Below are positions 13,114 through 31,900 of a stretch of 35,476 bases of DNA, piece by piece. How positions within the stretch are numbered: the stretch's first letter is position 1; every line of letters starts with the position of its first letter. Location: positions 1-35,476 of the IMG/VR virus record IMGVR_UViG_3300042475_005421; one strand, 5' to 3'. This DNA is from a virus. A program made the translations under genes and the position numbers. The notes below the pieces were generated by a model. The model was not told where the DNA came from, did no database searches, and worked only from the letters and a program-made list of their open reading frames with translations.

Positions 13114-15180
13114 ATGGGCTGGAACTCTCCAAAAGATAAATCACTCAAGTCGTCTGACTCAAAGCAGATTGCCTTTGGTGCACCAATTTCGGCAAACCCA
13201 GGTCTTGTACATAAACCATATCGAGATTCATGGGACATTGAACGCGCATATCGCGAGGGCATGTCCAAAATCACCTGGGTAAACAGGTGTATTGATGCAA
13301 TTGCCGGTAATCAGGCACGACTGCCAGTGATTCTTCGAAAAGATAATTCCAACAAGGGCGAGATAATAGTTGGTAAAGAAGCAAATCGCTCCACGTTGCT
13401 CGAGCTACTAAACACAAGAGCCAACGTTGGAGAAAATAGTTTTATCTTTAGATATAGGCTTTCTGCACAGCTTCTTCTTGGTACGCGCGGAGCATTTATT
13501 GAGAAAATACGCGGAAGAGACGGCGGAATAATCGCCCTTAATCTTCTACCACCACAGGCAACGGCGCCAATCCCTCATCCGAAAACATTTGTTTCCGGCT
13601 ATGAAGTTGCCATGCCCTACGGAGAAAAGGTAATACTTAAGCCAGAAGATGTTTGCTGGATTCGCCGTCCACACCCACTTGACCCATATCTGTCACTTAC
13701 TCCGCTCGAGGCTGCTGGTGTAGCTATTGAAATTGAAAATCTTGCGAAGCTCTACAACAGAAACTATCTCCTTAATGACGGCCGTCCTGGCGGCTTGCTT
13801 GTAGTCCGTGGAGAAATAGATGAAGACGATAAAGAAGAATTAAAGAGCAGGTTCCGTGGTAACCTATCCAAGACTGGACATACAACAGTAATCGCAGCAG
13901 ACGATGGCGTTGATTTTGTTGACACATCAGCGAGCCCGCGCGATGCCGCGTATATCCAGATGCGCCAAGTTACGAAAGAAGAAATTCTTGCTGCATTCGG
14001 TGTGCCGGAATCAGTAATAGGAAACGCAGCTGGAAGAACATTCAGCAATGCTGCGGAAGAAATACGTGTCTTCTGGATGGAAACAATGTTGCCGCACCTA
14101 GAACCGATTGCGCGAGCACTTGATGAGTTGGACGATAAAAACTATGTCGACTTCGATACGAGCGAAGTTCCAATTCTTCAGTTGTACAAGCAAGAGCGCG
14201 ATAGATATTTGCTTACAGAGTTTCAGGCTGGATTGATAAGCGGAAACGAATACCGAATTGGTTCCTCAAGAAAAGAAGTTGAGTCCGACCTTGCTGACTC
14301 ACTCCTCGCTAATCCAAACTTAATTCCGATTGCGAATACAAAGAAGAAGATGGACGAGAACGCTGCAATGGTCCCTGGTGCAGCCCCAGGTATGCCTGGA
14401 GCCCCCGGTATGCCACCAATTCCTGGAATGCCGCCAATGCCAGGTCAGGCCCCACCGATGGAAAACATCCCCCTTGACCCGAACACGATGCAGGGTGCAA
14501 TGGCCGAGGTTACACAAACAGGCGAGCTTGCTCAAAGTACACTCCCGCCAGAAGCAGCCGCATTACAAACTGGAGCTGCACCAACTCCACCTGGAGCGCT
14601 CACCGCAGAAAGCGGCGAGATGCAGTACAAATCAGCTGAGCCAGCTGTCGAAGACAGAACAGAAACTTCAATTGAGCGTTGGTCGGAAATACTTTCACGA
14701 GGAATTGAGAGAATTCTGGAAAGACAGCAACGAGTTGTACTGGAAAAGTCTGGTGGAAGCAAGGCAAGAAAAGGGCTCATGGCTGGAACGCTTGACATCG
14801 ATTCAATACTCTCGATTGACTCATGGAATAAGCAATTTGAAGATGACCTAAAGCCAGTTGTTTCCGCGATTATCAATGACTCGCATGAATCAAAACGCGA
14901 AAGAATGCATGTAAAGGGTTTGTCGCCAAGAGCTATACCGCCTCTAGATTTCTTGAGAGCTGTTGATTCACACGTTGCAAATATCAAAAAAATAAATGAG
15001 CAGACAGCCTTTAACATCAATGAAATAATGCTTAAATCGTTTGTTTATTCTGACGAAGAGCGAAGATTTTCATCCTTCAGACAAGAGCTAATTGAAATGT
15101 ATGCAAATCTTCTTGCAAAAGAACATGTCGAAATTGCTGAAGAAGAGACACGCCGAGCCTGGAACTTCGCTCAGTTCTAA
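13114..15180 (+). CDS. Portal protein (HK97-type) with long C-terminal extension
   Basis: 688 residues, longer than the usual 400-550. Residues about 45-400 show the phage portal pattern: an N-terminal helix with WVNRCIDAIAGNQARLPVIL, LLLGTRGAFIEKIR, a segment PEDVCWIRRPHPLDPYLSLTPLEAA, YNRNYLLNDGRPGGLLVV, and the helix region EEILAAFGVPESVIGNAAGRTFSNAAEE. The portal forms the 12-mer ring through which terminase packs DNA. Residues about 419-455 are a Pro/Gly/Met/Ala-rich low-complexity linker resembling collagen repeats. They are followed by a helical domain (about 520-688, IERWSEILSRGIERILERQQ) of unknown role. It lies directly before the maturation protease, the normal HK97 order. Confidence 0.9.
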   Translation: MGWNSPKDKSLKSSDSKQIAFGAPISANPGLVHKPYRDSWDIERAYREGMSKITWVNRCIDAIAGNQARLPVILRKDNSNKGEIIVGKEANRSTLLELLNTRANVGENSFIFRYRLSAQLLLGTRGAFIEKIRGRDGGIIALNLLPPQATAPIPHPKTFVSGYEVAMPYGEKVILKPEDVCWIRRPHPLDPYLSLTPLEAAGVAIEIENLAKLYNRNYLLNDGRPGGLLVVRGEIDEDDKEELKSRFRGNLSKTGHTTVIAADDGVDFVDTSASPRDAAYIQMRQVTKEEILAAFGVPESVIGNAAGRTFSNAAEEIRVFWMETMLPHLEPIARALDELDDKNYVDFDTSEVPILQLYKQERDRYLLTEFQAGLISGNEYRIGSSRKEVESDLADSLLANPNLIPIANTKKKMDENAAMVPGAAPGMPGAPGMPPIPGMPPMPGQAPPMENIPLDPNTMQGAMAEVTQTGELAQSTLPPEAAALQTGAAPTPPGALTAESGEMQYKSAEPAVEDRTETSIERWSEILSRGIERILERQQRVVLEKSGGSKARKGLMAGTLDIDSILSIDSWNKQFEDDLKPVVSAIINDSHESKRERMHVKGLSPRAIPPLDFLRAVDSHVANIKKINEQTAFNINEIMLKSFVYSDEERRFSSFRQELIEMYANLLAKEHVEIAEEETRRAWNFAQF

Positions 15181-15286: not shown

Positions 15287-18200
15287 ATGACCACTGACCA
15301 CTTTGAATACAAGTCGACATCCCTTGGCTCCGCTTCACAGAAAGCCGGCTCCGTCAATCTCGATGAGATGCAAGGAATTGTTGAGTGCTTTGTAGCTGGA
15401 ATCGGCAATAAAGACTCTGTTGGTGATATTTGCGCAAGTGGTGCTTTTACGAAGAGTCTTCAGCGCCGCAAGCCGCGTGTTGTGTGGGGCCATAACTGGA
15501 ATGACCCAATCGGCAAAGTACTCGAAATTTACGAGGTGCCACCGTCTGACCCACGCCTACCACTAAAAATGAAGATTGCCGGAATCGGCGGATTATTTGC
15601 AAAAGTTCAATTCAATCTTCAGTCAGAAAAGGGCCGCGAAGCTTTCACGATGGTTGCTTTCTTTGGAGAAGAACAAGAATGGTCGATTGGATATAAAACC
15701 CTGCGCGCACAGTATGACCAGAAGTCTCAGGCAAACGTAATCTACGAGTTGGAGCTTTATGAAGTGTCTCCAGTTCTTCATGGAGCCAATCAACTGACTG
15801 GCACAATTTCCGTGAAGACAGATGACCCATACGGCGAAGATAGCTCCGTAATGATGATGGATGATGAAAAGCCGAACAAGTTGGAAATTGAAAAGCAACT
15901 CTCAGGAATGCTTGGCGCAAAAATATCGCTCATGGAAATGGACGACGAAAATCTGACATTTGCTCGTCGTGTGGCTGACGGTTCAGTTAAGAGATTCAAG
16001 TGTGGCTGGAGTCGAACGGGTGGTCGAATGATGTTCGGCCCGCCAGAAGAAATAGTGATGCAGAGACCGTCCGCACCACAAACAGCACCAATGATGGTTC
16101 CGCCAAATGAGCCAAGAAGAATGGTCCGCCCACAGCAGATGCCATCAATGCCAATAGCTGTCAAGCCAGGCATGGAGGGTGTTGTTGTTGTTCCGCTCCC
16201 TGCAGTTCAGTACGAAGAGGGCAATAACAAGCCAATAGATAAGAACAACCTCGATAAAGAGGAAGCGGACCTGCGTGACGCTTTGCTAAAAATTGTAAAA
16301 CGCCACGGCAAGTTCAACGAAGACAAAGATGGTGTGTGGGCTGGATATAAACCGGCTTCAGAAAATCCCATCGCATCAATCGGGGTCAAGTGTGCAAATT
16401 GCGTGTTCTTCCAAAATGATGGGTCATGCAAGATTGTTGATATGGACATCGAACCAGAAGGCAAATGTCGTTTTGCAGTAATTCCAAAAGGCGTTGTCAA
16501 TGTCGATGGAATTGCTAAAAAGGAATACGAAATTGAAGAAGACGCAAATTTCGATGAAGCTATTGAAGACCTAGAAGTTAAGTACCCTGGCGAGTTTGTC
16601 ATGGCCATGCTTCGCGGAGCGGTAGGTAAGAGAAAAAAGAAGCGTAGCAAATTTAAATCACTTTCTGAATTTGGCAAAGATGACAACTCATTCGATGAGC
16701 AATACTGCATTCCGCTTCACCCAAATGACGCGTTCCGTGTCAAGCAAGAAATTGACCCAATTCTCGATTACTACATGGTTGATGCAGAAGTGGATATTGA
16801 TGGAATCGTTCTCAAATCCGGGGTTAGTTTAGATTTTATTGAAGCAGTCGATAACGCTCTGGAAAACATAAAAAAAAAATTTCTAGATAGCTCTGAGTTT
16901 GAGTCAAAAGCGATTGGCCGAAGACTAGGAAGCTACGTTGGCAGCAGACTCATTGATAGACCATCAATCGGTGGCCGTCGAGACAGAAGAAATCGCCGTG
17001 GCGACATTGACATGCCAACCGGCGGAACACCAGGAAATCGACGACCAACGGGGAGCGACTTCGACCCCGACAACGATGGCTGGGTAGATGAAGGAACAAC
17101 ACGACCCCGCTTCGTCGGCGTGCAAGATGCAAAACCGGCAACACCGTCAAAACCCTTCTCTTCTGGAGCTGAGAAACGCTCACGATTTAATACTTCACGT
17201 CACGGTCTTGGAAAAGAAACCGAGAGTAAGTTTGGTGTCGCACCAGATGAACAGGCAAGACGAGAAGCATTTGACAAGACTGCACAGGAATGGGTTGATA
17301 AGGGCTTCGGCTGGGAGGAAGTGCCTCGCTACCAAACAGACAATACACGTTCCGCAGAGTTCTTAAGAGGGCGCGAGCTTGGGTACAACCAAGCAAGAAG
17401 AGCATGGCAAGGCGACGACAAGAAGCGCCCAGCAAAATTCAACGAAAAAGCAAAGAGCGGACAGGCGTATCAAGAGTGGTATTACGATTTTGTTCGCACA
17501 CTAGGCACATACCTCGATGCAACAAATAAGTATTTTGCCGGAAAAGACAAAAAGGACAAGAATAAAAATTATGTTGGCGAAGACGGCGAGAGCCAGTTTC
17601 TTAAAGGACTTGATAGTGCGCTACGCAGCGAAGTCTATGAGCGTCGCCCGTCAACTGGAACATGGGACCCAAACGATAAAGAGACTCTTGCTCGCTGGAT
17701 GAACTCATATGGGTTCGACGGTGCAAGCCCAAACAAGCCAGATAGAAAACTCTCATCCGGAAGACTTCCTGCGCTCGATGACGATTTCGACCCAGATAAT
17801 CCCTACGGCGACGACAACCTTCCATTCGATGAGAGCGGAACTGATACATACGACAGAATTATTAGAGATTTCCTCGGCGAAGAAATGCCACGTCCAAAAC
17901 GAGGGAAAATCGCTCCACCAGAAAAGAACCCAGAAGACTATACAGACCAGGATATTTACGAAGAGCGCATGAATGGCGTATCCATTGAGGATATGGCCAA
18001 AAAACTTGGTGTAACAAGAACGGAGGTGCGCCAGGCAGAACAAAGATACATGTCCGAGATTCGAAGAGGCAGTGCATCGCGTGCTGCCGAGAGCGCGCCA
18101 AGACTTTCTAGTGGATTTGAGAATTTCCTAAAAAAGCCAGAAAACAAGCGCACTCGTCGTGAAAAGCAAGACTACTTAGGACCACTCTGGGAATACAGGG

Positions 18201-21200
18201 ATGGCCAGACACTGTCATCTGGAAAAGATGAAAATCAAGAAGCAGATGCAGCTCGTATTAAAGACATGTACCAGCAAATGGGTGAAGCAATTATTGCTGC
18301 GCTTGATGAGATATTAAAGGACCCAAGCAAAGCTGGCCAGTGGCAAGTGCCTTGGCGCTCGCCAGAGTTGTACGGTCGAAATCCAACAAGAAGAAATCGT
18401 ATTTATCAAGGCATGAATCAATTGATTCTTTCCCAGGTCGCATCAAAGCGCAAATACAAAACAAATCGTTGGGCTGGACGTTCGCAGTGGCGTGAGTTGA
18501 ATAAGAAAGCAAAACCAAAACCAGGAGAAATTGGTGTCAATATCCTCGTTCCGTTTGACATAAAAAATGATGACGGAATTCGTACTGGTGAAAAGGGTTT
18601 CAAAATTGAAACAGTATTCAACGCCGACCAAATGGACGGACTGCCAGCATGGGTCTACGAAGTCAAAGAAACAGAAAAACTTGATGCGGCACAACGACTT
18701 GAAGACATTGAAAATGTAATCAAAGAAATTGGTCCTAGATACAGGGAACAGGGAGTCAGTGCATTCTACGACCCAAACGATGACACGATAAATGTTCCTC
18801 CATTTGAGAACTTTATTGAACCAATTGCTTTCTATGGAACAGTTCTGCATGAAATTATTCACTGGACAGCCCATCCATCGCGACTAAAGAGAGACCTAAG
18901 CGGCAGAATGAAGGGCACCCCAGAACAGAGAAAGAAATACGCATTTGAAGAACTCATCGCAGAAATCGGTGCTTCATTTGCGATGGGATTCCTCGGTGTA
19001 GAGCCTCAAATACGCGAGGACCATATTCAGTACCTAGCGTTCTGGCGCAAAGCACTGCAGGACGACCCAAGCTCAATCCGTCGTGCAATTGAAGGCGGAC
19101 AGCAGGCTGTTGACTACATTATGAATAAGTCAGCAACGCTGCGCAAGCGCGCTGGTGTTCCAGACAGCGAACGCAAGGGTAAAGAAGACTACACAATTGA
19201 AGCGCCAATCGTTGGTCGAATCACTATCCCAATTCCAAAGAAAAAGCCAGTTGTCGGCACACCAACACCAGAAAACAAAGTACGTCAACGCGTGCGTGTT
19301 CGTGGACAAGGTCCATCTGCAGTAAAAACTATCCTTGAGGACTACGAGAATAATCGTCTTTCAAGCGGCATAACCGGATTCGTTATCAAGGACGAAGAAG
19401 GCAACACGTATAACCAAATTAACAAGCGTCTTTCTTCTGGCCGCGGACCAATTGTTGGCGCCAAGGACCCTAAGCGCAAGATTGAGCGAACTGAGGGTTC
19501 GTTCATGGAAATGTTTGGAATGAAGTTTGAGCCGACTGATGAACAAAAAGACGTTATGGACACAGTTGCACACTTCACAAAAACTGGTGAAGGTGGATTG
19601 GTTGCTGTTCGCGCAGGAGCCGGAGCAGGTAAAACCACCACACTTGAACAATCTGTTATTCGTATGGCCAAGGAATCTCCGGAGTCACAGTTTTATTACA
19701 TAACATTCAATAAGAAAAATGCTTCAGAAGCAGCACGTAGAATGCCTGACAACACAGGAAGCTCTTCGATTAACCAATTGGCATACTGGTCCCTATTGCT
19801 CGAAGACAGGCCAGGAATTTCTCCAGAGTTCAAAGAGAAACTAAAAAAGATAGGCATTGGCGCCGGCAACGAGTACTACTCATCAGCAAACCCTAAATCA
19901 ACAAGACAAACGTCTGCAGAGGGATATGGTGGAAAAACTGTCGATACAACAGGATTGAAAAAAGCTGGATTCAGAACTTTGGGATACGTTTCGTTTGAAA
20001 CAACAAGCGGTGGTCGCGACGTAGCGAGACACTACGATTTCGGCACGAAATACCCAGACGGACTCACCCACGAAGGGGTGGAGCTGACTGCTGACGATTA
20101 TGGTCTTGTTCTCATCAACGCCCTTACTCGTTATTCACAGAGTGATGATGATGTGCTTAGTGAAAAACATTTCAAGCTTCGTCCACACGAAATTGAAAGA
20201 AATAAGCAACTTGCCGAGTCTGGCGACCCAATCGACCCTGCCGAAACAGCATTCGACCAGATACCACAAGAGTGGGTTGACCTAGCACTCAAAATGTGGT
20301 CTGACACGCTCGACCCGAAGAGCAATGTACTGCCCAATTACGACCAGCAAGTAAAGATTTGGGCTATGCAAAAACCAAATCTGCGTACAGACGCTGGAAT
20401 GGTTGGTCACGGCACAAGAAAAGTGAAAGATGCAAGAGCACAGGACAAAAAACTTGACCCAGGCTCAATAGTCCAAGTTGATGGTGTGGATTATGTCTAC
20501 ACAGGTGGTGGAGCACGCGCCGGATTGCGTCGCCGATATGCAACGGAAGATAAGCCCATTTCGACTTTCTTCTTTGACGAAGCTCAGGACGTAAACCCAG
20601 TTCTCCAAAAGGTGATTGAAGACAATATTGCGAATAATAATCTTGCAATAGTCATGGTCGGTGACCCACGGCAATCAATTTATGGATTCCGTGGTTCATC
20701 TGACTCATTCGCTCGACTCAATCCAGATTTCAACTTAACGTTGACTGACTCATTCAGATACGGAAAGACAGTTGCGTTCCTTGGAAACTTGATGCTTGGT
20801 CGTGGAAACATGACCGACAGGCAGGGTGGGATTGATGAGGTTTCTGCGGACTACAAGTTGTTTGGCCGACTTCAGGATGTGGTTTCTCATGACTTCAATC
20901 TTGGAACACTCACCGGAAATGATTTGCGTAAGAAACTTGATTCAATACAAAAGAAATACGGAATTTCTGGTCCAGACGGACAGTCACTGGCAGATATGCC
21001 AGAAAAAGAGAGAAATGAGCTACTGGACAAGGCTCGTGGTTACATCGTTCCAGAATCGGAAGGAATCCTCTACCGTCAGATACCAACAAGCGCAGATGGT
21101 ACGTGGGCATATATTTCTTATTCAAACAAAAACACCCTTACAGCTGCCTTGGAATTCATCGGAGCGCATCCAGACAAAATCGTTGGATTGCCTGCCGAAA

Positions 21201-24151
21201 AATACAGAGACATGGTTGAATTCCTACGCCACTATCAGTTTGTCCTCCGTCCTGTTGGGACACGACCACGCGAATCAAAGATTATTGGCAATGCGTGGAC
21301 AATGGAGGAAATCAGAAAACGCGCAGGTCAAAAATCATCCTATGGTCAACTGGGTTCAATGCTCAAGCTTTTGCAGGTTCGAGACGCAGAAGGAAATCAA
21401 CTTTCCCCACTTGACTGGCTAAACAGATTGCTAGGTCGAAGGGACCCACAAACTGGCGAGGTCTTAACTAGAGCAAGAATACGAGAAATAGAAGAACCAC
21501 TCGATGTTGACCCATTCAAGAATATAGATGGAAGTTCTTCGACGGTTTCTGGTGAGGAACTAATTGCTCTCGGAAAACAAAAAGCAGGTAAAGGCGGCGG
21601 TGGAGCTAAGGGTGCGTACAAGATGAATCGTGATAAGCGATTTAACATCATCCCGAACCCAACCGGCCAGACACCAAGCAGAGAAGTTTTCTGGAAACTG
21701 GATACCGAAAGTCTTGGTGCAGATGGGAAATGGGAGAATGGAGTAATTATTTCCGGTGAAGGAATAATTGATGTCTACCAGTTCAGGGACGCAGCAGGAA
21801 AAATTCAGTACACAGGTGACAAGAACGGCGAAAAGCCTATGATGCGACGCCGGATTGAGAAAATGATTAAAGACCTCAATCTGGAAGGAAAAGTCACAAT
21901 AGAAAAGCAGTACGTACCACGTAAGGCTGGCTCATCGAATGCACCAGCATATGACGCTGTAAGAATAAAGGGAGATAATCCAGAAGAGACTGGATTGCTC
22001 CTCAGCCTTGTTGGAAGAATGATAACTGACTCAGCAAACGAGCCAGAAGTTGATGCATCGTTCTTAACAACACACGCAGCCAAAGGTTTGGAATTCGACA
22101 ACGTGGTTGCCGGAGACGATTTCTTCCAGCCAAAGTTTGAAGACGATGGTTCGATACTTCCAGGGAATGACATAAGTCGTGAAATGGAAAACCTTATTTA
22201 CGTCATGATGACTCGCGCAAAAAAGCGCATTCAGTTGTCTGAGGCAACGTCATGGATTATCGACCCAAAGAAAAATCCAAAGGGTTTTGAATATATTGAA
22301 AAGTTCCTAACCGAGGAGCAGCAGGCTCCTTCTGGATTTTGGAACCCATTTGGAGATGGTGAGCAAGTATTCCCTGATGGCGCAAGAGAGATACTTTCAA
22401 GCGGTCGCGTAAATAGCGTACCTGAAACAGCAGTTCCAGGAACTGGGACCAACAGGTCGGCAAGACGAGCAAGACTTCGTGGCGGAGATGTTGAGCGACA
22501 GGCCACTACAGAAACATCAGCACCAGAAACGCCAGTAGTCCAAGCGCCAGAACGGACAGCAGCAGTTGGTGGGCCACGTTCAGTAAACAGTTCAAATCGC
22601 GCTGACAGAAAAGCACGAAGAATGAGTAGCGGGTCCACTTATGCGGACAATATCAATGCTACAAATCTTGCTGCAATTAGAGGCTCAAAGACTGGAGAGT
22701 CATTCGCGTTTGCCAGAAGATTCTGGGATGGTTTTAGAAAACGCGGAATAACGCTAGATACGTCAAGTAAGTCCGGAACAGTAAAAGAGCGCAGACGACA
22801 GATAAATGAGGGCCTGGATAAGGCTGCCGCCGCAATGAAGCGTCGACCACAAGTAACTATCGGTCGCGTATCTGGGAATGAAAATCTTTCGAATCCAGAT
22901 GCAGATACATGGATGCTTCCAGTAAAGAGCCTGAAGGAATCAATCAGAATTCCAACAGAGTTTGATGTTGTCAGAAATCCAGACAACACAATTGCTGATG
23001 TAAAGTGGACCAAGTCGGAACCAATTTCCAACACCGACCTTTCAAGATTGCTAAATTTATCGCCAGAGGATGCAAAGAGGATTTCTGATGATGATTCTGG
23101 AATATCCCACAATGCCGTCAGATTCCTCGTTGCAGAACTCGGCAATAGACCTGAATTTGGTGGATGGAGATTGTTCTCGCCAGTAACTTCAGACGAGCCG
23201 GGCGTGGAGAAGATGTCGTCAGCTCAACGTTTTGCCGAAAATCTCGGTAGAGCCAATATGCGCGACAGATTCATCATTGAAACATTTGGGAAAGACGCAT
23301 ATCCGTTCTGGGCCGACAGGGAAGAAAATCAAATCATTTCTTCAGATGAATACTCCACTCTTGGAGAAGTCGACCCAGTGGCAAAATTTAGGGCAACTGG
23401 AAGATTTACGCCAAACCCAGAAGACGCTGATGGCGAAGCTTCTGCCGAGGCTGACCTTATTTACGAGGGAATGCCAGACTTTGTTCCAGAAGCACCAGCA
23501 CCGACGGTCAATGAAACAAACCCAGCTGGCGCAAAGACATCAAGAAGAGATTTCAAGTTGGATAATCTCATCGAAAATCTTGGTCTTGACAGAGACGAAT
23601 GGATGGCTCAGCTAAGAGAAAGAATGAAGCGGTCATTCGGGATGGATGATGTCGGTTTGACCAATCCGAAAGACAGGAAGTCATGGGAAAGTGACGGAGT
23701 GCCAGTTGCAGCAATCCAGGAGATGATTCGGACAGGGATGATTGAGAATGCGGAAAGCGTTTGGCCAGAAAATGGTCAAAAGCTTGACGGTGAACTTCGC
23801 GCAAGCAAGGCAAATGTTGCCGAGGCGATGGTTGAGTTCATATCAAACACCCAGAAGGGTTCTGGTGGAAACACCAAGAGAAATAAGGAATACATCCTTG
23901 GTACGAGCAATCTTTCCGTTCTTCTAAACAATGCAGCAAAAACACGCGGCAAGACTTTCAGCAAGATTAAGGGTGATGAGCCAAGATACTCATCCAACGA
24001 GCTTCAAGATGTGGTCAATCGTTTCAATGAAATATTTGGCACAAGCCACACAATTGAGGACATTTTCAGTAAAGAGCAATTAGAAAACGCACGTAAGAGA
24101 CTTCAAGAAGAAGGTCGAACCATGTTCGGCAAATCAGGAACAAAAGAATAG
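15287..24151 (+). CDS. Giant prohead protease polyprotein with ArdC/zincin and SF1 helicase modules
   Basis: 2954 residues. Residues 1-175 are an HK97-type prohead protease (H69 in VVWGHNW, S133 in EWSIGYK). C369, C372, C381 and C394 form a small metal or Fe-S knuckle. D593-E602 resembles an EF-hand loop. Residues about 990-1150 resemble the ArdC single-strand DNA-binding domain, followed by a zincin (HEIIH 1188-1192, E1222 or E1226 as third ligand). Residues about 1390-2350 are a UvrD-type SF1 helicase: Walker A G1444-T1450, DEAQ 1764-1767, GDPRQSIYGFRG from 1792, HAAKGLEF from 2263, TRAKKR from 2309. [LMF]SSG motifs at residues 624, 822, 940, 976, 1358, 1382, 2370 and 2446 fall between these modules. 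I infer self-processing into several virion proteins. Residues 2450-2954 are unrecognised. Confidence 0.85.
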   Translation: MTTDHFEYKSTSLGSASQKAGSVNLDEMQGIVECFVAGIGNKDSVGDICASGAFTKSLQRRKPRVVWGHNWNDPIGKVLEIYEVPPSDPRLPLKMKIAGIGGLFAKVQFNLQSEKGREAFTMVAFFGEEQEWSIGYKTLRAQYDQKSQANVIYELELYEVSPVLHGANQLTGTISVKTDDPYGEDSSVMMMDDEKPNKLEIEKQLSGMLGAKISLMEMDDENLTFARRVADGSVKRFKCGWSRTGGRMMFGPPEEIVMQRPSAPQTAPMMVPPNEPRRMVRPQQMPSMPIAVKPGMEGVVVVPLPAVQYEEGNNKPIDKNNLDKEEADLRDALLKIVKRHGKFNEDKDGVWAGYKPASENPIASIGVKCANCVFFQNDGSCKIVDMDIEPEGKCRFAVIPKGVVNVDGIAKKEYEIEEDANFDEAIEDLEVKYPGEFVMAMLRGAVGKRKKKRSKFKSLSEFGKDDNSFDEQYCIPLHPNDAFRVKQEIDPILDYYMVDAEVDIDGIVLKSGVSLDFIEAVDNALENIKKKFLDSSEFESKAIGRRLGSYVGSRLIDRPSIGGRRDRRNRRGDIDMPTGGTPGNRRPTGSDFDPDNDGWVDEGTTRPRFVGVQDAKPATPSKPFSSGAEKRSRFNTSRHGLGKETESKFGVAPDEQARREAFDKTAQEWVDKGFGWEEVPRYQTDNTRSAEFLRGRELGYNQARRAWQGDDKKRPAKFNEKAKSGQAYQEWYYDFVRTLGTYLDATNKYFAGKDKKDKNKNYVGEDGESQFLKGLDSALRSEVYERRPSTGTWDPNDKETLARWMNSYGFDGASPNKPDRKLSSGRLPALDDDFDPDNPYGDDNLPFDESGTDTYDRIIRDFLGEEMPRPKRGKIAPPEKNPEDYTDQDIYEERMNGVSIEDMAKKLGVTRTEVRQAEQRYMSEIRRGSASRAAESAPRLSSGFENFLKKPENKRTRREKQDYLGPLWEYRDGQTLSSGKDENQEADAARIKDMYQQMGEAIIAALDEILKDPSKAGQWQVPWRSPELYGRNPTRRNRIYQGMNQLILSQVASKRKYKTNRWAGRSQWRELNKKAKPKPGEIGVNILVPFDIKNDDGIRTGEKGFKIETVFNADQMDGLPAWVYEVKETEKLDAAQRLEDIENVIKEIGPRYREQGVSAFYDPNDDTINVPPFENFIEPIAFYGTVLHEIIHWTAHPSRLKRDLSGRMKGTPEQRKKYAFEELIAEIGASFAMGFLGVEPQIREDHIQYLAFWRKALQDDPSSIRRAIEGGQQAVDYIMNKSATLRKRAGVPDSERKGKEDYTIEAPIVGRITIPIPKKKPVVGTPTPENKVRQRVRVRGQGPSAVKTILEDYENNRLSSGITGFVIKDEEGNTYNQINKRLSSGRGPIVGAKDPKRKIERTEGSFMEMFGMKFEPTDEQKDVMDTVAHFTKTGEGGLVAVRAGAGAGKTTTLEQSVIRMAKESPESQFYYITFNKKNASEAARRMPDNTGSSSINQLAYWSLLLEDRPGISPEFKEKLKKIGIGAGNEYYSSANPKSTRQTSAEGYGGKTVDTTGLKKAGFRTLGYVSFETTSGGRDVARHYDFGTKYPDGLTHEGVELTADDYGLVLINALTRYSQSDDDVLSEKHFKLRPHEIERNKQLAESGDPIDPAETAFDQIPQEWVDLALKMWSDTLDPKSNVLPNYDQQVKIWAMQKPNLRTDAGMVGHGTRKVKDARAQDKKLDPGSIVQVDGVDYVYTGGGARAGLRRRYATEDKPISTFFFDEAQDVNPVLQKVIEDNIANNNLAIVMVGDPRQSIYGFRGSSDSFARLNPDFNLTLTDSFRYGKTVAFLGNLMLGRGNMTDRQGGIDEVSADYKLFGRLQDVVSHDFNLGTLTGNDLRKKLDSIQKKYGISGPDGQSLADMPEKERNELLDKARGYIVPESEGILYRQIPTSADGTWAYISYSNKNTLTAALEFIGAHPDKIVGLPAEKYRDMVEFLRHYQFVLRPVGTRPRESKIIGNAWTMEEIRKRAGQKSSYGQLGSMLKLLQVRDAEGNQLSPLDWLNRLLGRRDPQTGEVLTRARIREIEEPLDVDPFKNIDGSSSTVSGEELIALGKQKAGKGGGGAKGAYKMNRDKRFNIIPNPTGQTPSREVFWKLDTESLGADGKWENGVIISGEGIIDVYQFRDAAGKIQYTGDKNGEKPMMRRRIEKMIKDLNLEGKVTIEKQYVPRKAGSSNAPAYDAVRIKGDNPEETGLLLSLVGRMITDSANEPEVDASFLTTHAAKGLEFDNVVAGDDFFQPKFEDDGSILPGNDISREMENLIYVMMTRAKKRIQLSEATSWIIDPKKNPKGFEYIEKFLTEEQQAPSGFWNPFGDGEQVFPDGAREILSSGRVNSVPETAVPGTGTNRSARRARLRGGDVERQATTETSAPETPVVQAPERTAAVGGPRSVNSSNRADRKARRMSSGSTYADNINATNLAAIRGSKTGESFAFARRFWDGFRKRGITLDTSSKSGTVKERRRQINEGLDKAAAAMKRRPQVTIGRVSGNENLSNPDADTWMLPVKSLKESIRIPTEFDVVRNPDNTIADVKWTKSEPISNTDLSRLLNLSPEDAKRISDDDSGISHNAVRFLVAELGNRPEFGGWRLFSPVTSDEPGVEKMSSAQRFAENLGRANMRDRFIIETFGKDAYPFWADREENQIISSDEYSTLGEVDPVAKFRATGRFTPNPEDADGEASAEADLIYEGMPDFVPEAPAPTVNETNPAGAKTSRRDFKLDNLIENLGLDRDEWMAQLRERMKRSFGMDDVGLTNPKDRKSWESDGVPVAAIQEMIRTGMIENAESVWPENGQKLDGELRASKANVAEAMVEFISNTQKGSGGNTKRNKEYILGTSNLSVLLNNAAKTRGKTFSKIKGDEPRYSSNELQDVVNRFNEIFGTSHTIEDIFSKEQLENARKRLQEEGRTMFGKSGTKE
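16870..16879 (+). other. A10 homopolymer, possible slippage site inside the giant protease gene
   Basis: Ten consecutive A bases followed by TTT encode I528-K-K-K-F532. Gain of one A (or -1 ribosomal shift) leads to TAG within four codons. Loss of one A leads to TAG within about two codons after the run. Either event ends the protein near residue 533, releasing the protease and metal-knuckle part alone. Confidence 0.4.
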
Positions 24152-24225
24152 GAATATTGCAGTAGTAAATAAATTTGCAGAAATTAGTTAATGTTGCTAA
24201 TTCACGCTGCTGCGACATGATACGT

Positions 24226-24231
24226 TATAAT
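24226..24231 (+). promoter_or_regulatory. Consensus -10 box upstream of the acidic virion protein gene
   Basis: TATAAT is a perfect -10 sequence in the 142-base gap between the giant protease gene and the next gene. The -35 region is poor (TTCACG at 24201-24206 with 19-base spacing). A GACCGGTC palindrome follows at 24261-24268 in the expected leader. AGGAG at 24285-24289 is the ribosome binding site of the gene at 24294. The gene between the two giants may therefore be transcribed independently. Confidence 0.45.
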
Positions 24232-24293
24232 TTAGAGCACAATTTAATGGTTAATGTCCAGACCGGTCATTTTCCTGCACAAACAGGAGTTCT

Positions 24294-25907
24294 ATGAGCT
24301 ACGACGAGAAGGTGAATGTCAGTATCGACAGCGACGGAGACGTGCTGAAGTGCGCGAAAGGACTTGCTTCTGGCGAGTGCGGATTTGTCAAGGGCGCAAA
24401 AATTTGCGCCAAATGCGGCGCGGTACCAGTTGAAATGAAGATGGTTCCAGTTTCGGGATTGGATGGGAAAAGCGTCATGTCGGAAGATATGACAGAAGAC
24501 ATGATGCCAGAAATGTCAGAGGACATGGTTTCTCGCAACAAGAAGAAAAAGAAGAAACCATCCATGAAAGAAATGTACGCAGAAATGGATGACGAGGAAA
24601 TGGCCGAAGACGAAGAAGAGTCAATGGCCAAAAAGCGCATGGTTCCAGAGATGCAAGAAGATGTCGAACCAGAAATGGACGACATGGACGAAGAAGATGA
24701 CGAAAACCTCGACACTGACGCAGACGAGGAAGAGATGGATTCTGAATCCGAAAAAATGTACGGAATGGGTCCAAAGGGACGCCGTAAGTTCAAGGCTGAA
24801 GACATGGATATGTCAGAAGACGAAATGGACGAAGACGAAGAAGACGAAGAAGACATGGACATGGAAGAAGAAGACATGGACATGGAAGAAGAAGCCGAAG
24901 AGGGCGCAGAAGACGAAGAAGAAATGGACGAAGACGAAGAAGAAGATACTGAGGAAAAGTCTTTTGATGCCGGTAATGAATACTGGGATGCCCTCCGTGA
25001 AACACGTATTAAGTCGATGGGCATAAAGCCATCGGACATTGGTGCGTCAGGTTACGTCTGCTCCCTAGAGCGCAAGGCTTATGCTGGCTCTGCCCCAGTA
25101 TGCGATGACTGCCCAGGTGGATGCATTGCGGAAAAAGGAATGCCAGGAATCCTTCATGTTGAAGGACTTGCTGAACAGATGTTCAATGGTCGCGTTATCG
25201 ACTCTGGCTATTCTGCAGATGCGGACATGTTTGTGGTTGATGTGCAAACAAAGAGTGGAGATGTCAAGGAAATATTCATTGACGGAACAACTGCTGAAGT
25301 TATGGGTTTCCACAAACTTGACGTAAATGAATTTGAGCAAAAATCAGAGGCGTCTGAGTACAAGTTGATTGACTTCACTGAAGCTGCAGAAATCGCAGTA
25401 AAATCATTCGATGGACATGTCGTGGCTGTTGAGCCAGACGTATTCGAAGGATTTGATTCGTACGCAGTTGAAATCGAAGGATTCGACGGAAAGTCATACG
25501 ATGTTTTCGTTGCCCTCGATGGAGAGGTTCTCGGATACGACAGATACGAGCAAGATGAAGCTGAAGCAATTGAAGCAGAAGCAGCAGAGCTTGCCTTGAA
25601 GCGTGCTTTCAACGAAGAACGACGAATGGACCTTGCAAAAGAAGGCATGGCTCTTCCGGACGGTTCATACCCAATTGTTACCGAAGCTGATTTGCGCAAT
25701 GCAATTCAGGCATTTGGTCGCGCCAAGGATAAAGAAGCAGCGAAGAAGCACATCATGAAGCGGGCGCGGGCTCTGAAGCTCGAAAGCTTGATTCCAGCAA
25801 ACTGGATTGCTGGTGCTTCAGAAAAGAATGAGGTGCCAAATGATGCAAACTTCCTCGCCTCACTGGTTGAGTTTCAGCTGCTCGAAGAGCAAATCGACAA
25901 TCTCTAA
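24294..25907 (+). CDS. Acidic metal-ribbon / PepSY-like protein of the head operon (possible assembly or scaffold protein)
   Basis: 537 residues. C20, C29, C38 and C41 form a zinc-ribbon-like knuckle. Residues about 55-225 are extremely Asp/Glu/Met-rich and likely disordered. A second cysteine cluster follows (C256, C270, C273, C277). Two strand-helix-strand units follow (about residues 285-345 and 350-420), each like a PepSY domain (AEIAVKSFDGHVVAVEP...YAVEIEGFDGKSYDVFVALDGEVLGYD). The C-terminus LPDGSYPIVTEADLRNAIQA...KKHIMKRARALKLESLIPANW resembles a tail module that recurs on phage head proteins. It has its own strong ribosome binding site. Position after portal and protease is where a scaffold or capsid protein is expected, and the acidic region fits a scaffold, but I see no HK97 capsid fold. 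Confidence 0.7.
   Translation: MSYDEKVNVSIDSDGDVLKCAKGLASGECGFVKGAKICAKCGAVPVEMKMVPVSGLDGKSVMSEDMTEDMMPEMSEDMVSRNKKKKKKPSMKEMYAEMDDEEMAEDEEESMAKKRMVPEMQEDVEPEMDDMDEEDDENLDTDADEEEMDSESEKMYGMGPKGRRKFKAEDMDMSEDEMDEDEEDEEDMDMEEEDMDMEEEAEEGAEDEEEMDEDEEEDTEEKSFDAGNEYWDALRETRIKSMGIKPSDIGASGYVCSLERKAYAGSAPVCDDCPGGCIAEKGMPGILHVEGLAEQMFNGRVIDSGYSADADMFVVDVQTKSGDVKEIFIDGTTAEVMGFHKLDVNEFEQKSEASEYKLIDFTEAAEIAVKSFDGHVVAVEPDVFEGFDSYAVEIEGFDGKSYDVFVALDGEVLGYDRYEQDEAEAIEAEAAELALKRAFNEERRMDLAKEGMALPDGSYPIVTEADLRNAIQAFGRAKDKEAAKKHIMKRARALKLESLIPANWIAGASEKNEVPNDANFLASLVEFQLLEEQIDNL
24851..24892 (+). repeat. Two tandem 21-base repeats in the acidic region
   Basis: The unit GACATGGACATGGAAGAAGAA occurs as two adjacent copies (24851-24871 and 24872-24892), encoding DMDMEEE twice. 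It lies in a longer GAA/GAC-rich stretch that has probably expanded by replication slippage and may vary between related phages. Confidence 0.75.
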
Positions 25908-25924
25908 CAAAAAGGCAACCCGCA

Positions 25925-28900
25925 ATGACGGGTGATTTCACCGACAAGGAACGAGTAGTTGTATCGCGTCGCATGCTGGCGCCTGCGCGCACTATTGGTG
26001 ACGTTGATAAAAAGGCTCTTACTTTCAAGGCTTCAGTTATTGAATCAGCCAAACAGGAAAGACTTATTGCCGATATCGCAGTAAAAGCTCTTGGCGAAAA
26101 TCGCCAAACATACGAAGATACCGACAATAAGAAACGTGAATTCACTGGAGACACTAGACCTGGCGTTCAGTCCGACGAATTTGGTCACAGATGGGAAACT
26201 GCAGCGAAGTGGGAGCCAGGAAAAAGGTTTGTACTTAGTCCATCATACGAAAGCAAAAATGGCATGGACACCATGCCAAACATTGGGTGGATTGAGCCGA
26301 CAACTGGGAATTTCAAAAATCTCGACGAAATGCTTTTTGAGCTTAATCGCAAACCGCAAATAAAACTTACAAAATTTAAAGTAAATGCAAAAACAGATGA
26401 TGTAATCCAGGAATCGGCAGAAGAAATAGATGGATTCTCTATTACTGCAGGCATGTCATTCGATGAGCGACGAGCCAAACTACGTGAACTAACAGAAAAA
26501 GAAAACGGACTAGAAAAAAAACGCCTCCCTGGCAGACCTCTCTCTTCTCGTATTCCTGGTGGAAATCTCATTGCGCGAGCTGCTGCTCGATTCGGCGTAG
26601 TCCGTGACGAGCTAAACAAATTCAGATGCCCTCCGGGAACCCCTGCTGCAAACCAATTTACGGACATGTTCGGAACCAACTGTTTTGGTTTTAGCGCGTC
26701 CAGATTCTCTCGCTTTGCTGCGCGTAAGGCAAAAGAGATGCAGGAATCAGGGGAGCTTGGTGGTTTTACAAACGGAGTAAGAACACTACTTAACTTTATA
26801 AAAAACAATGAGTGGGATTCAAATGTTCCGTGGGCTCCAGTCAGAATGGCAAGAAGCCCGTATTACGACGAGATAACTGGAGAAAGACTAGATTCCCCAG
26901 ATTGGCGTACGGTTGACGTTGAGCCAGGTCAGCGACTTTTTAGAAACGGACTGATAAATGCCCAGGATGCGGCTATCAAGTTCGATGAAAGCGTTTCGGA
27001 ACTATATAGCGAATTGGGTGTTGACAGAAGCGATGCTGCACGAGCAGTAAATGCTGACGTATTCGAGGCAGTAGAAAAGCTAAATGAGCTGTTCGTCGCA
27101 ACGGGCGGCAGAGATGGTTGGGACCTAAACGTATCGAATGTTTCTGGAATGGGCGATATGTCCAGAATGAGACCAGACGAGGTTCGCAGGTACATAACAG
27201 CCCGCCTGCAGAAGGTGGCTAACTGGAAAGCGCTGACCAAGCCAGAACAAGAGCGCTTAATTGAAGCTGACATTAAGAGATATTACGAAACAGAGCGAGC
27301 ATATTTTGAAACAGCTTTGCATCTGTACAAAACAAAACCAGGAACCGCTAAATTTTTCGACCGAATTGAATACAATTTCTTCACTAATGACGAAGCAGGA
27401 ACTGCGGTTCACGGAAGCATGAGGCCAGGTGCTGGTGGAATACGTGGAGTAATGCACGTAAACCTAGAGCGCATCATGACAAACCAGGAATCGATGCTGC
27501 CAGACATGCGTGCAGATGAACGACTTGCCGTATCTGCTGTTGGGGTTGTCAGTGACTCAGAGGCGAAGAGCGCAGTAGCAGACTTCTTGATAAATTCCGA
27601 ATATGCAGCACGCCATATGGCAGGGCTCATAGACGGGCCGAGGTCATTTACTAAACATATTGCTTTTCATGAGTTTTCACACGGAATTCAAAGCCAGGCA
27701 TTCATTCAAAAAATTCTTCGCAAAGCTATCGATAACGGCGGAAAAATTGAAATCCCTCAGTACAAACAAGACAAGAGAACTGGTGCGATGACGTTTGTCG
27801 GCAACCGTATTGTCACTGTTGATTTCGATGAAGAGCGTGGAGGCTTGTTGACAAATCTAACAAGCGGTGATGTTATGGATTTGATGATGGATTCCAATGA
27901 TGGCTTGGACCTGAAAAATATGTCAGATGCATTAAAGCGCAGTGAAGTGGCTGCATTTCTTGCTGGCAAGTACCCAACCGAATATACAGAAGGCAGCGAA
28001 ATATGGGGTCTTGAGGTTGGTGCAGAACTACATGCACTACGCGAACAGGGACTTATTTTCGGAGATGACGTAGACGCAGCATTGGAGTGGATGGATGACG
28101 TTGAGCGAAGCAGGCTTTCTGCCGAGCGCGCAGATATTGATGCAGAAGAACGCGCAATACTGGAAAGTACTACATTCAGGCCGACTTCCAGCTCTTCTGC
28201 AGACCGCCTTTCCGATGAAGAAATCGATGAAATGTCCGGAGACATTGAGAAACGAACAATAGAGGAAAGACGGGAAAAACTTAAAGAATTTAAAAAATTC
28301 TATTCGGAACTCGATGAAGAAGAGATGTTCCAACAAGCTGCACTGGTTGATGCCCAAAGAAGAGACATACGCGCACAACTTGATAATTTTACGAATGAGC
28401 TCAATGGGCTTTCTGAACTACCAGAAGATGCAACAGAGGAATCAATAACAGAGCGAATAGAGAAAGTGGCTGACCTCAGCAAGAAAATTGAAGAAGGTCA
28501 AAAAATACTTGACTACTACGAGAAAATGTACTCTGATTCGCGTTCTGAGTGGAGGAAGAAATTCGGAGTTGGAGCAAAGGGTGAGGCATCGAGATTCGAC
28601 AGGGTAGTCGAAAAAACAAGACGTGATGCAGGAATGGTGGATGACGAAGAAATAAAAGCATTTGCTAAAGCAAAAAGAATTGATGACATAACATCTTCAG
28701 CAAAAACAAAATCAGAAAATCAACTGATTCGCCGTGCCGCTGATATTGACGTCTTGGTTAAAGACAGGCTAGAAGACGACCCGGAAGTTCAAGAATTAAT
28801 GGAGGAGCGCTCAATTCTCCGTTCTGAATATATTTCACGAATTGCAGAGAGTGGTGATTCGCGTGCAACAGCAAGGGCCGGTAGGGAGTTTAATGGCAAG

Positions 28901-31900
28901 GTAGATGAATTACTCAAACCAAAACCTAAGAAAATAAAGAAATTTAAATCGCAAAAAGAAGCTATAGACAATGCGAAACGAGAGAAAGCGCGCCTGCGTC
29001 GAAAGATAACCAAAGAACAAGCTGCTGCAATCCGAGAGATGGATGATTTCGTAGCCCCAGAAATAGCGCAGATGTTAACTCCGGAAAAGCAAACTGTTGT
29101 AGGTAGGGCGATGAATGCAAGAAATGCTCGTCTCAACCGTCTTGGCCTTGCCGTAGACCCGAGGCGCAAGGACGAGGGTTCGCTGTCTGAACAGGTGCGC
29201 AACATACTCATCCCAACAATGGAAGCAATTGATTCGTCGTCGATAGATTCGCCATTTGAATTTGAGGTTGTATCCGACTTCCCAGCAGTAGAAGTAAAGG
29301 GGAAAAAGGTTGGGGATGAAATAAATGTAGATAATTTCATTTCTGGACGTGTACTCACATCTCGCTCTAAACCGACATCATCACCTCGAGGGACAGATAA
29401 GGAAACGGGCCGCGTAAAGAGGAAAATAATCATTAGTGTTGCAGAAGGAAATCGCGGAGTCTTTCCAAATGCCGAAAAAGATGATGAGCAAAAGTTCGTC
29501 GCACCTCCAGGGAAACTGAGAATCATTAGTCGCGACAAAGATGGAACGATAAGAGCTGAAATTGTAAGACAGAAAGACACCGTTGATGTACTTGATGCCC
29601 TTGTTGACGGAATCAGCTCTGGAACCGATGACGCCATATGGCGACAGGGAAACTCTAAGAAAATTAGAGAAGTTGCCGATAAAGAAATAATAAGAAGAAG
29701 CAAACTCGGCATATCGAGGCCAGACTCAACAGAAAGAGAATCTGCAGATATAGACGAGACAAGCGCTGAGATAATTGATTCAGTTGCAGATTTTGGGTCA
29801 ACCTTCGGCGAAGCCCCATCAAGACGACTTTCTTCTGGGTCTACACATTTTGGACCAACTCTCTCCAGAGAGGAAAGACGGTCTTCGCGGAGAAAGCAGC
29901 TTTCGTCTGATATGCGTGAGCTGCGCTCAATTCTCAATGGTAATGGTTCAAAAGAGTATGACGACATTGCATCAGACATGCTCGACTCAAATGTTGCAGA
30001 AGCTCTTCGAAGGTACTCAGATGAACAGATAGCACAGTTGATTGAAAATGCTGCATTTAAAATGCACAGTTCTTTCGACAGACGAGTTCGAGTGAGAATG
30101 CGTGACGAAGATATTAGTTCGTTGTCGGAAAATGGGGTTGTTCGTTCTGGCGGAGTTCGTCCTGGTGTTCCATCCACCTCAAGAAGAACAGAACGACTTT
30201 CAAGAATGGCACCAAACGACAGGCGCGGACGTCTGTCTAGTGGACGTATCAGCTCGGTAGAGGAATTAGAAAGTAGGGCGAAACTGGAAGATGAGGTAGC
30301 CGCAAAAGCGGCAGACATTTTCGACAAAGTTGTTGCTGGTGGAAAAAACGTCGACGACATGAATACTGACGAGATATCAAAGGTTTTTGGTAAATCACTG
30401 GTCCGCTCAACAAGGAAGGCAATTAGCGCAAAGCACAAAAATACATACATTGCCGAAGACGTACCGACAGCGTTGGCGCTTATGTCACTCGGCCATCACG
30501 TGATTGTAAAAGATGCAGACCTAACACTTACCGCTAGCGCTCAGGCAAAGCTAGAGAAGGCAGTGCAGAAAAGCGCCTTGACCCATATTGAGCAGAATAA
30601 CGAAAGATGGTTGAACTTCAAGAAAGCATACGAAGCTGATGTGCTTTCAAATAATCCAAGCATCGATATCTCATCAAAAGATTTTGTAAACAAAATGAAA
30701 AAAGACTATGTCGACAGCTACCAGGCTGACCTATGTGGGCTTTATGATGCAATGCAAAATCTGCTGTGTTCTGGCCATATCGGCATAGATAGAGAAAAGA
30801 TGCCCCAGACAAACGGAAGAACAAAAGGCGCAAACACAATTGCCATACGGATGTTAAAAAATGGTAAAGCCGATGGGAAATGGGAACCTGCATCTGGACT
30901 GTCTACTGAGGATAGTGAAAGATACGCATCCCTAAAAAAACGTCATCCAATGAAAAATAAACCATCATCGAACCCAATGTCAGAGGATGAACTTAATTGG
31001 TTCTACTCGAACACGGATTGGAATAACACCGAGGTGAATCTTGAGGGTGAATTTATTCAATTCCTAAATGAAACACTTACACCAGAAGACCCGTCTACTG
31101 GTCCATCCGTACGTAAAAAAACAGTCCCCGCAAACGAGTATGCTCCGTCGCAGCAGCAGCTTGTCGCATCAAAGGTGTCTGGCATGGCAGATGGAATAAC
31201 CAAAAAAGCACTTGAAATCGCAGACCAACTAGAGCAAGAAGGTCTTGATAGAAAGTCCGATGAATTCAGACGGCGCTTCCTTGAAGAAATCAATAAGCAG
31301 TGGTTCAGTTCGCCGATACTCGCAACAATGGATAAATACATTTTGGATGGACATCACAGATGGGCAGGAATAAACGTAGCGAATCTTGGCTTAGGTGATG
31401 AATTGCAGGTTCCACTAAATGTTAACGAAGTGCAAACCGACATCGTTGAGGGCCTTACACTTGGCAGAGCTTTTCAGGAAGTATATGGAATCAAGGAAGC
31501 AAGACTTGGTGCAGAAAATGCTTGGCAAAAGGGAGATATTGCTGAAATCAGCGACTCGGAAATTGCGAAAGTTGCAGAAGACCTAAAGACGAATATTTCA
31601 GACATGGCCGACGAGCTCTATGAGCGAGGTGACTTCATCAAGGTTGGTGCCGTCGGATACACAGCACGTCCGGACTACAAAAAAGCAGTTACCACAAGAC
31701 AGTCGTTGCGTTCCAATCGCAGAATAGTCCTACCAGACGATTCTGATGAAATCACAGGTAGGGCAGCTGCGCGAAGGACATGGTTCAGCTCTGGAAGAGA
31801 CATGACAAGTGCCGCGAGCCGAGCTAGAAATGATAGAAATGCAAATGCAAGAGCAGTTAGCGCGCTAACAAAAGCCGGAGTAGAAAAATCCGAGCGCGGA

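Follow-up and report, generated by a model that had tools for sequence, protein, structure and literature searches.

IMG/VR virus record IMGVR_UViG_3300042475_005421 encodes two giant proteins on its plus strand, and a four-residue motif, [L/M/F]-S-S-G, recurs along both. The window analysed here is the whole virus record of 35,476 bases. Our subject is this motif and its reading as a set of maturation cleavage sites, put forward in an earlier annotation of the same DNA (hereafter the original prediction). Giant 1 begins with an S78 prohead protease, a type that we take to count as assemblin-like, and joins two or more effector domains of the polyvalent set in one chain (ArdC-N, MPTase-PolyVal and a UvrD helicase). 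A repeated site between functional units and a protease in cis are both present. The two giants and the annotated domains of giant 1 are as follows.

15287..24151, plus strand: giant 1, a 2954-residue polyprotein candidate; open reading frame (ORF) with domain matches and eight [LMF]SSG sites
15377..15808, plus strand: S78 prohead (head maturation) protease, giant 1 residues 31-174; Pfam PF04586 (E 2.2e-9) and PHROG 80 (E 1.1e-25)
18260..19141, plus strand: ArdC-N and zincin MPTase-PolyVal, giant 1 residues 992-1285; Pfam PF08401 and PF18818, PHROG 7245
19499..22243, plus strand: UvrD-type helicase, giant 1 residues about 1405-2319; Pfam PF00580 and PF13361, PHROG 1967
25925..33301, plus strand: giant 2, a 2458-residue polyprotein candidate; ORF with three [LMF]SSG sites

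These profile matches, which for ArdC-N and MPTase-PolyVal span residues 992-1267, bear out two earlier assignments, that a prohead protease sits at the N-terminus of giant 1 and that the ArdC/zincin and helicase modules lie between particular motif copies. A sequence search for a solved structure of the protease domain gave none at E<=1, and profile searches of giant 2 against Pfam and PHROGs at E 0.01 gave no match. The motif sites are listed below with their state in alignments of 12 orthologs, one per genome, and in AlphaFold models of giant 1 residues 815-1425 and giant 2 residues 1290-1990, scored by predicted local distance difference test (pLDDT).

17156..17167, plus strand: FSSG at giant 1 residue 624; outside any motif column common to at least four genomes
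17750..17761, plus strand: LSSG at 822; in a segment of pLDDT<50, but near the cut end of the modelled piece
18104..18115, plus strand: LSSG at 940; motif column in 8/12 genomes, two residues past a segment of pLDDT<50
18212..18223, plus strand: LSSG at 976, the N-border of the ArdC cassette; motif column in 11/12 genomes, immediately preceding a segment of pLDDT<50
19358..19369, plus strand: LSSG at 1358; inside the pLDDT<50 segment 486-551 of the model
19430..19441, plus strand: LSSG at 1382, the N-border of the helicase cassette; motif column in 12/12 genomes, 10-residue pLDDT means 58 and 72
22394..22405, plus strand: LSSG at 2370, on the C-side of the helicase; from sequence
22622..22633, plus strand: MSSG at 2446, ahead of the C-terminal cassette; from sequence
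26540..26551, plus strand: variant LSSR at giant 2 residue 206, a possible N-terminal site; L-x-S-R in 8/12 orthologs
29828..29839, plus strand: LSSG at 1302; motif column in 9/12 genomes, pLDDT<50 near the cut end of the model
30233..30244, plus strand: LSSG at 1437; motif column in 9/12 genomes, at the end of a segment of pLDDT<50
31784..31795, plus strand: FSSG at 1954; in a segment of pLDDT<50, outside columns common to at least four genomes

The eight giant-1 and three giant-2 sites all stand where the original prediction placed them, and its random expectation of well under one per protein agrees with our shuffles. In 5000 composition-preserving shuffles of the near-identical copies of both giants in a longer relative, G002, the mean was 0.125 for giant 1 and 0.151 for giant 2, with a maximum of 3 each, compared with observed counts of 8 and 3. 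The count in giant 2 therefore equals the most extreme shuffle, and the family data carry the case for that protein. Three close variants in giant 2 had also been proposed, LSSR at 206, LSSD at 1326 and LSSD at 2140, and an ISSG occurs at 1230. In the alignment of 12 giant-2 orthologs, position 206 is loosely kept (LSSR, LESR or LASR in eight, LGSM in one more); the motif is not kept at 1326, 2140 or 1230, and we dropped these as sites.

We then examined the motif in relatives. The protease domain, used as a query, retrieved 540 encoded relatives, and we kept the 80 that scored best. Among all 4-mers in 12 giants of four genomes, LSSG is the commonest (68 copies, 62 times expectation), and 68 of the 86 SSG triplets are preceded by L. 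These giants hold 75 copies of [LMF]SSG in 35,298 residues, against 20 in 158,627 residues of other ORFs. This comparison and the shuffles rule out chance or composition as the cause of the motif. We surveyed giant 1 in the 122 loci nearest the query (L002-L081 and L120-L161; two scans, each contributing its 80 best), and every distinct giant-1 ORF of 2000 residues or more, 28 in all and some of them nearly alike, carries at least three [LMF][SA]SG. The giant 1 of L075 has near-tandem copies (ERISSGRD three times). The long contigs encode a third giant that lies beyond the window; in G002 it comes some 20 kb after giant 2. The three giants of 12 genomes have 235 sites in total. In a logo of the sites, S is enriched 4.5x at -3, position -1 is R, S or K, position 0 is L and less often F or M, and position +1 is S or A; S and G follow, then A, K or R. 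The 205 [LF]SSG sites are encoded by 143 different DNA 12-mers, which rules out a repeat at the DNA level.

The motif is concentrated in few proteins. Among 101 ortholog clusters present in at least 5 of 12 contigs (ORFs mechanically called; G009, G010, G016 and G020 partial or fragments), only giants 1, 2 and 3 and the tape measure carry it consistently. In the tape measure it stands at residue 36 in 7/8 genomes and often again near 570-650. By eye, the tape measures of L220 (G003) and L218 (G008) and their orthologs end in an M15-peptidase-like stretch.

We next asked where the motif lies relative to domain borders. In the 12-ortholog alignment of giant 1, a motif precedes ArdC in 11 genomes and the helicase in 12 and follows the helicase in 11, and the flanks at these borders have many gaps and score 0.23, 0.38 and 0.11 in conservation, compared with 0.39 across the full alignment. 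The post-helicase border has one motif column common to the other 11 genomes; the G002 sites 2370 and 2446 do not align to it, but nonetheless stand at that border. Homolog alignment thus upholds the expectation of a conserved motif amid divergent flanks at the main giant-1 borders, but not site by site: the columns common to at least four genomes hold only 940, 976 and 1382 in giant 1 and 1302 and 1437 in giant 2. Of the eight modelled motifs, five are in or at the edge of segments with pLDDT<50 and two lie within two residues of one. In giant 2, low-pLDDT segments flank a well-modelled domain on both sides.

30242..31723, plus strand: folded cassette, giant 2 residues about 1440-1933; block-mean pLDDT mostly 70-95, invariant D-G-H-H-R

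A ParB-like region had been predicted between 1437 and 1954. This cassette has a D-G-H-H-R signature, invariant in the ortholog alignment, which we take to be ParB-like; Pfam and PHROGs profiles gave no match, and Foldseek against the Protein Data Bank (PDB) found nothing at E<=0.001.

Giant 3 is a mosaic. Pieces cut at the motif form families whose order varies between genomes, with at least one order inversion in 40 of the 66 genome pairs. We compared the ends of 248 giant-3 alignments (of 252, keeping those with <80% identity and >=60 columns) with motif positions, and 58% lie within 20 residues of a motif against 13% for random motif positions (the highest of 1000 randomizations was 21%); right-hand ends near the C-terminus were also scored as within 20 residues. 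The cassettes of giant 3 include a DnaQ-like exonuclease, a GNAT domain (in G025), a zincin signature and a ParB-C-terminal-like domain. For the last, in the G008 giant 3 (cassette 113-301), residues 113-294 match a standalone protein of Vibrio phage 1.081.O at 32.5% identity over nearly all of its 217 residues. A standalone match in Manatee Spring phage (47.9%) was rejected as evidence for the left border, as only the C-terminal part of that 304-residue protein is matched.

Giants 1 and 3 also share a leader-like element.

16895..17140, plus strand: leader-like element, giant 1 residues 537-618; basic, with an RRxRR tract and a DxDxDG loop

In the G002 copies, this stretch is 73% identical over 82 residues to residues 22-101 of giant 3 (E 3.5e-31), and it lies just ahead of the first motif in both proteins; giant 2 was unmatched in the comparison. 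In the giant 1 of G007, the matching stretch sits after the first motif. The first motif of giant 3 falls at residues 103-138 in 12/12 genomes, and a DxDxDG-like loop is found by pattern at about 60-85 in 10/12; the window giant 1 has it at 585-600. We take this loop to resemble a calcium-binding loop. By analogy with the capsid targeting sequences of T4, the leader may carry giants 1 and 3 into the prohead.

The motif comes in dialects that the giants within a genome have in common: R/K-LSSG, S-LSSG or F[SA]SG. Across the 12 genomes, giant 1 correlates with giants 2 and 3 in the share of sites with R/K at -1 (r=0.83), S at -1 (0.78) and R/K at +4 (0.93). For F at 0, r is also 0.93, mainly due to one genome (permutation share 0.05); kinship among these genomes means that such shares should not be read as strict probabilities. 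In G025, F sites make up 4/4 in giant 1, 3/3 in giant 2, 9/14 in giant 3 and 3/3 in a partial tape measure. In G032, from a separate part of the tree, the shares are 10/16 in giant 1, 8/9 in giant 2 and 1/2 in a 1703-residue minus-strand ORF, and in its relative G042 F is found in 6 of the 16 sites shown (17 total) and in 1/8. We built a protease tree after excluding 28 of 157 proteases (cut-off ORFs) and merging identical cores to 102. On it, the LSSG/FSSG genomes are one group of 39 rows (one a short ORF; support 84/81), and the F label requires three gains or losses. We lean, if narrowly, toward a picture in which the effector cassettes are shuffled because all are flanked by the same code, and the code drifts into dialects along with the prohead protease.

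A scan of genome contigs gave three further proteases (L221-L223), and viral scans with two of them (best 80 each) extended the family to 281 loci, with a protease ORF in 277, 157 of them distinct, and 59 distinct ORFs of at least 1500 residues. Putative His and Ser motifs served as selection criteria for these loci, so the conservation of those motifs is no independent test. Among the 59 long ORFs, 45 have at least three [LMF][SA]SG; L236 and L241, counted among these, have more LxSR (nine each) and are labelled GxxS on the tree. Several of the other 14 repeat strings of like form, such as GLAS (11 times in L252), GLRS, GFAS and GMRS. L221 has nine [LF]xSR against 1.5 expected; L222 and L223 show no repeat in excess. 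In G040, GMRS is repeated in three giants (3, 2 and 3 times), and GLxS occurs 14 times in 5,979 residues of giants against 2 in 9,040. The corresponding counts are 14 in 6,731 against 3 in 15,389 for G030 and 9 in 3,543 against 7 in 17,536 for G029. LSSG is not enriched in the giants of these three genomes, which were chosen after the repeats had been seen. GANL/GADL repeats (L282 and L299 giant 1), which we take to be pentapeptide-repeat-like, were set aside as another repeat type. The dialects and the distant repeats share the core [LFM]-x-S, which suggests, at the level of sequence patterns, that the code is broader than LSSG.

The window protease belongs to a head module, with the portal directly upstream and, in G002, the major capsid protein (MCP) downstream of giant 2. 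We compared 18 MCPs and four added ones. A string L[ST]S[RHS]E at about residue 94-98 is present in 15/15 LSSG-code genomes (two identical there) and in 0/7 others. This MCP site was not accepted as the HK97 cut: the best HK97-chain alignments begin at MCP residue 158-163, so residue 97 cannot be equated with it.

We think it likely that the motif marks sites of cleavage during maturation. The S78 prohead protease of giant 1 is the probable enzyme, and its cuts would free virion-borne effectors. Border conservation, cassette shuffling and common dialects, computed alongside motif enrichment, favour this reading, which the original prediction had proposed. That account now appears largely right, with three amendments: a wider code, a third giant and the tape measure in the system, and a candidate leader of giants 1 and 3. 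Several virion-delivered proteins would be translated as a few giant chains. The cargo in the window would comprise the ArdC-type antirestriction/zincin module, the helicase and cassettes of unknown function, to which giant 3 of the relatives would add the DnaQ-like nuclease, GNAT and others. The prohead would take up the chains, in the case of giants 1 and 3 perhaps by way of their common basic leader, and the N-terminal S78 protease of giant 1 would cut at [L/F/M]-x-S, in the window clade at L-[S/A]-S-G, probably after the second Ser. The freed cassettes would then be packaged and ejected with the DNA. We infer the cutting itself, the bond cut, S78 as the enzyme and the packaging and ejection of the pieces; the link to S78 comes mainly from its place in cis and from family knowledge. 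The cut is placed after Ser (between the second Ser and Gly of L-S-S-G) because the [LFM]-x-S core resembles in form the L/I-X-E of T4 gp21 and the giant-phage rules.

Several observations weigh against this interpretation. Five of the eight giant-1 window sites (624, 822, 1358, 2370 and 2446) are outside shared motif columns, 111 of the 248 giant-3 alignments run across a motif, disorder is not predicted at site 1382, and among the five low-pLDDT motifs 822 and 1302 sit close to the N-terminal cuts of the modelled pieces, a place where confidence would be low in any case. The tape measure is a tail protein, an odd substrate for a head protease. In the wider family, 56 closed, distinct protease ORFs of 306-989 residues are unfused to a giant, the related long ORFs of L302, L306, L353 and L377 have weak repeats, and the four giants of G036 (L416-L419, 2763-3372 residues), near a related protease of 474 residues, have 0, 1, 1 and 4 GLxS-type strings and no clear repeat. 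As to the MCP, the F-dialect genomes keep L there, the GLxS-code MCPs have no clear code of their own, and the difference amounts to a single clade-level change; when 97 clusters were screened, 4 conserved columns fitted the test pattern and 2, 0, 1, 2 and 0 fitted five control patterns, so chance yields comparable columns. The available text on T4, phiKZ, 201phi2-1 and SPN3US also has their head proteases cutting after Glu, not Ser. Finally, HExxH is present in giants 1, 2 and 3, each in 12/12 genomes, so another candidate enzyme lies within the same chains. Giant 2 of the window carries such a signature.

27668..27682, plus strand: HEFSH zincin signature, giant 2 residues 582-586; HExxH in 12/12 giant-2 orthologs

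The form in giant 3 is HE[WYF]GHW in 11/12, with others in G025. The motif might then be cut by a zincin metallopeptidase within the giants, acting in the prohead or, once ejected, in the host. This would suit the tape measure, which is an ejected protein, and Iyer et al. (2017), in the part of their text available, propose release of polyvalent domains by a zincin (PMC5512222). Yet the HExxH stretches differ between the three giants while a single dialect serves all, and the MCP N-arm, which differs between LSSG-code and other genomes, gives a weak, clade-level hint to the head protease; we consider zincin cleavage unlikely. An equally unlikely account does without cutting: the motif would be a docking peptide for a scaffold, portal or capsid partner, the giants would be lined up on the wall of the prohead and packaged in one piece, and the dialects would track changes in the partner. 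Shared dialects within a genome suit any trans-acting partner, most modelled sites are in or beside low-confidence linkers, and many copies per chain would give avidity. Docking, however, does not require copies between cassettes to mark exchange points, and the maturation protease in cis and the recurrence of the tape measure copy at a fixed place near its N-terminus also speak against it. We regard as very improbable that the motif is a by-product of cassette recombination, arising from a DNA-level site or linker composition, with no function in the protein. Cassettes are indeed reordered at the motif, which shows some excess of CTT and TCT codons, but the variety of encoding 12-mers, the retention of the motif at fixed giant-1 borders and the concerted L-to-F shifts in several proteins, with the three tree changes that the F label needs, all stand against this.

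Cleavage by S78 can be compared with known systems. Phage head proteases with short codes are known already, as are polyvalent proteins. The T4 protease follows the rule L/I-X-E, and T4 has capsid targeting propeptides (PMC9026906); the rule for SPN3US is A-X-E (PMC5694885). In the available portions of these reports, the prohead proteases of T4, phiKZ and SPN3US have residue-x-residue codes (L/I-X-E, S/A/G-X-E and A-X-E) and several head proteins are cut by each protease (PMC9026906, PMC5694885, PMC10052503). The candidate code [LFM]-x-S would, judging by sequence, share the short hydrophobic-x-residue form, but unlike in T4-type processing its P1-like place is Ser rather than Glu. In the three phages, the available text describes cutting chiefly of propeptides and scaffold, spread over separate proteins, whereas the giants here have up to 17 sites per chain (G042 giant 1) between domain-sized cassettes, in clade-specific dialects. 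The leader of giants 1 and 3 is a candidate counterpart of the T4 targeting propeptides; it is unmatched in giant 2 and, in the giant 1 of G007, follows the first motif.

Like the giants, the polyvalent proteins of Iyer et al. (2017) are large phage chains of several domains, with ArdC and zincin among their effectors (PMC5512222). They are predicted to be delivered with DNA and released by a peptidase, and the authors liken them to the polyproteins of RNA viruses (PMC5512222). The accessible portion of that paper describes no repeated cleavage motif, and has their assemblin-like peptidase always C-terminal, whereas S78 here is N-terminal; the C-terminal place is given as a tendency of polyvalent proteins, not a defining feature (PMC5512222). 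The Dar proteins of P1 are virion antirestriction proteins, and the prohead protease Pro cuts the N-terminus of DarA (PMC12810830). According to the text available, they are separate proteins and DarA loses one N-terminal fragment (PMC12810830). Among the best isolate matches to the protease (38-45% identity) are Gordonia phages Gray, DalanDe and GMA6, Brevibacterium phage Cantare and Streptomyces phage Gilgamesh. We checked 33 proteins of these five phages, including the 4624-residue gp48 of Gilgamesh, and found single copies of LSSG only and no repeat; we therefore set aside isolated phages as models. Our searches of the literature in PubMed Central, outside which most subscription papers and bioRxiv preprints lie, turned up no paper on the motif and no many-site code between exchangeable cassettes with clade dialects.

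Two other ORFs adjoin the giants in the window.

13114..15180, plus strand: portal protein, directly upstream of giant 1; PHROG 2662 (E 7.3e-67)
24294..25907, plus strand: 537-residue ORF between the giants, without the motif; relatives adjoin the proteases of L221-L223

The portal proteins of L069, L071, L074, L075 and L078 have KKALSSGTL or RKALSSGTL at 550-559 of longer reading frames. Relatives of the 537-residue ORF next to the L222 and L223 proteases are 39-41% identical to it, and its N-terminus is cysteine-rich by eye. On its minus strand the window also encodes a large terminase. Two further genes are a phosphoadenosine phosphosulfate reductase-like one (PHROG 2302, 3906-5048), likely an auxiliary metabolic gene, and a standalone ParB-like partition/nuclease gene (5058-5906).

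If the motif is indeed cleaved, tailed phages make genuine multi-product polyproteins whose cleavage code can be read, and the unannotated giants of uncultured phages would become lists of separate injected proteins. The code would mark the borders of unknown effectors for cloning, and would make it possible to test directly how antirestriction proteins carried in the virion are loaded. It would also mean a protease family whose differing specificity is readable from the genome. If the code drifts as we suggest, each lineage would have its own protease-substrate language (R-LSSG, S-LSSG, F[SA]SG, GLRS, GFAS or GMRS).

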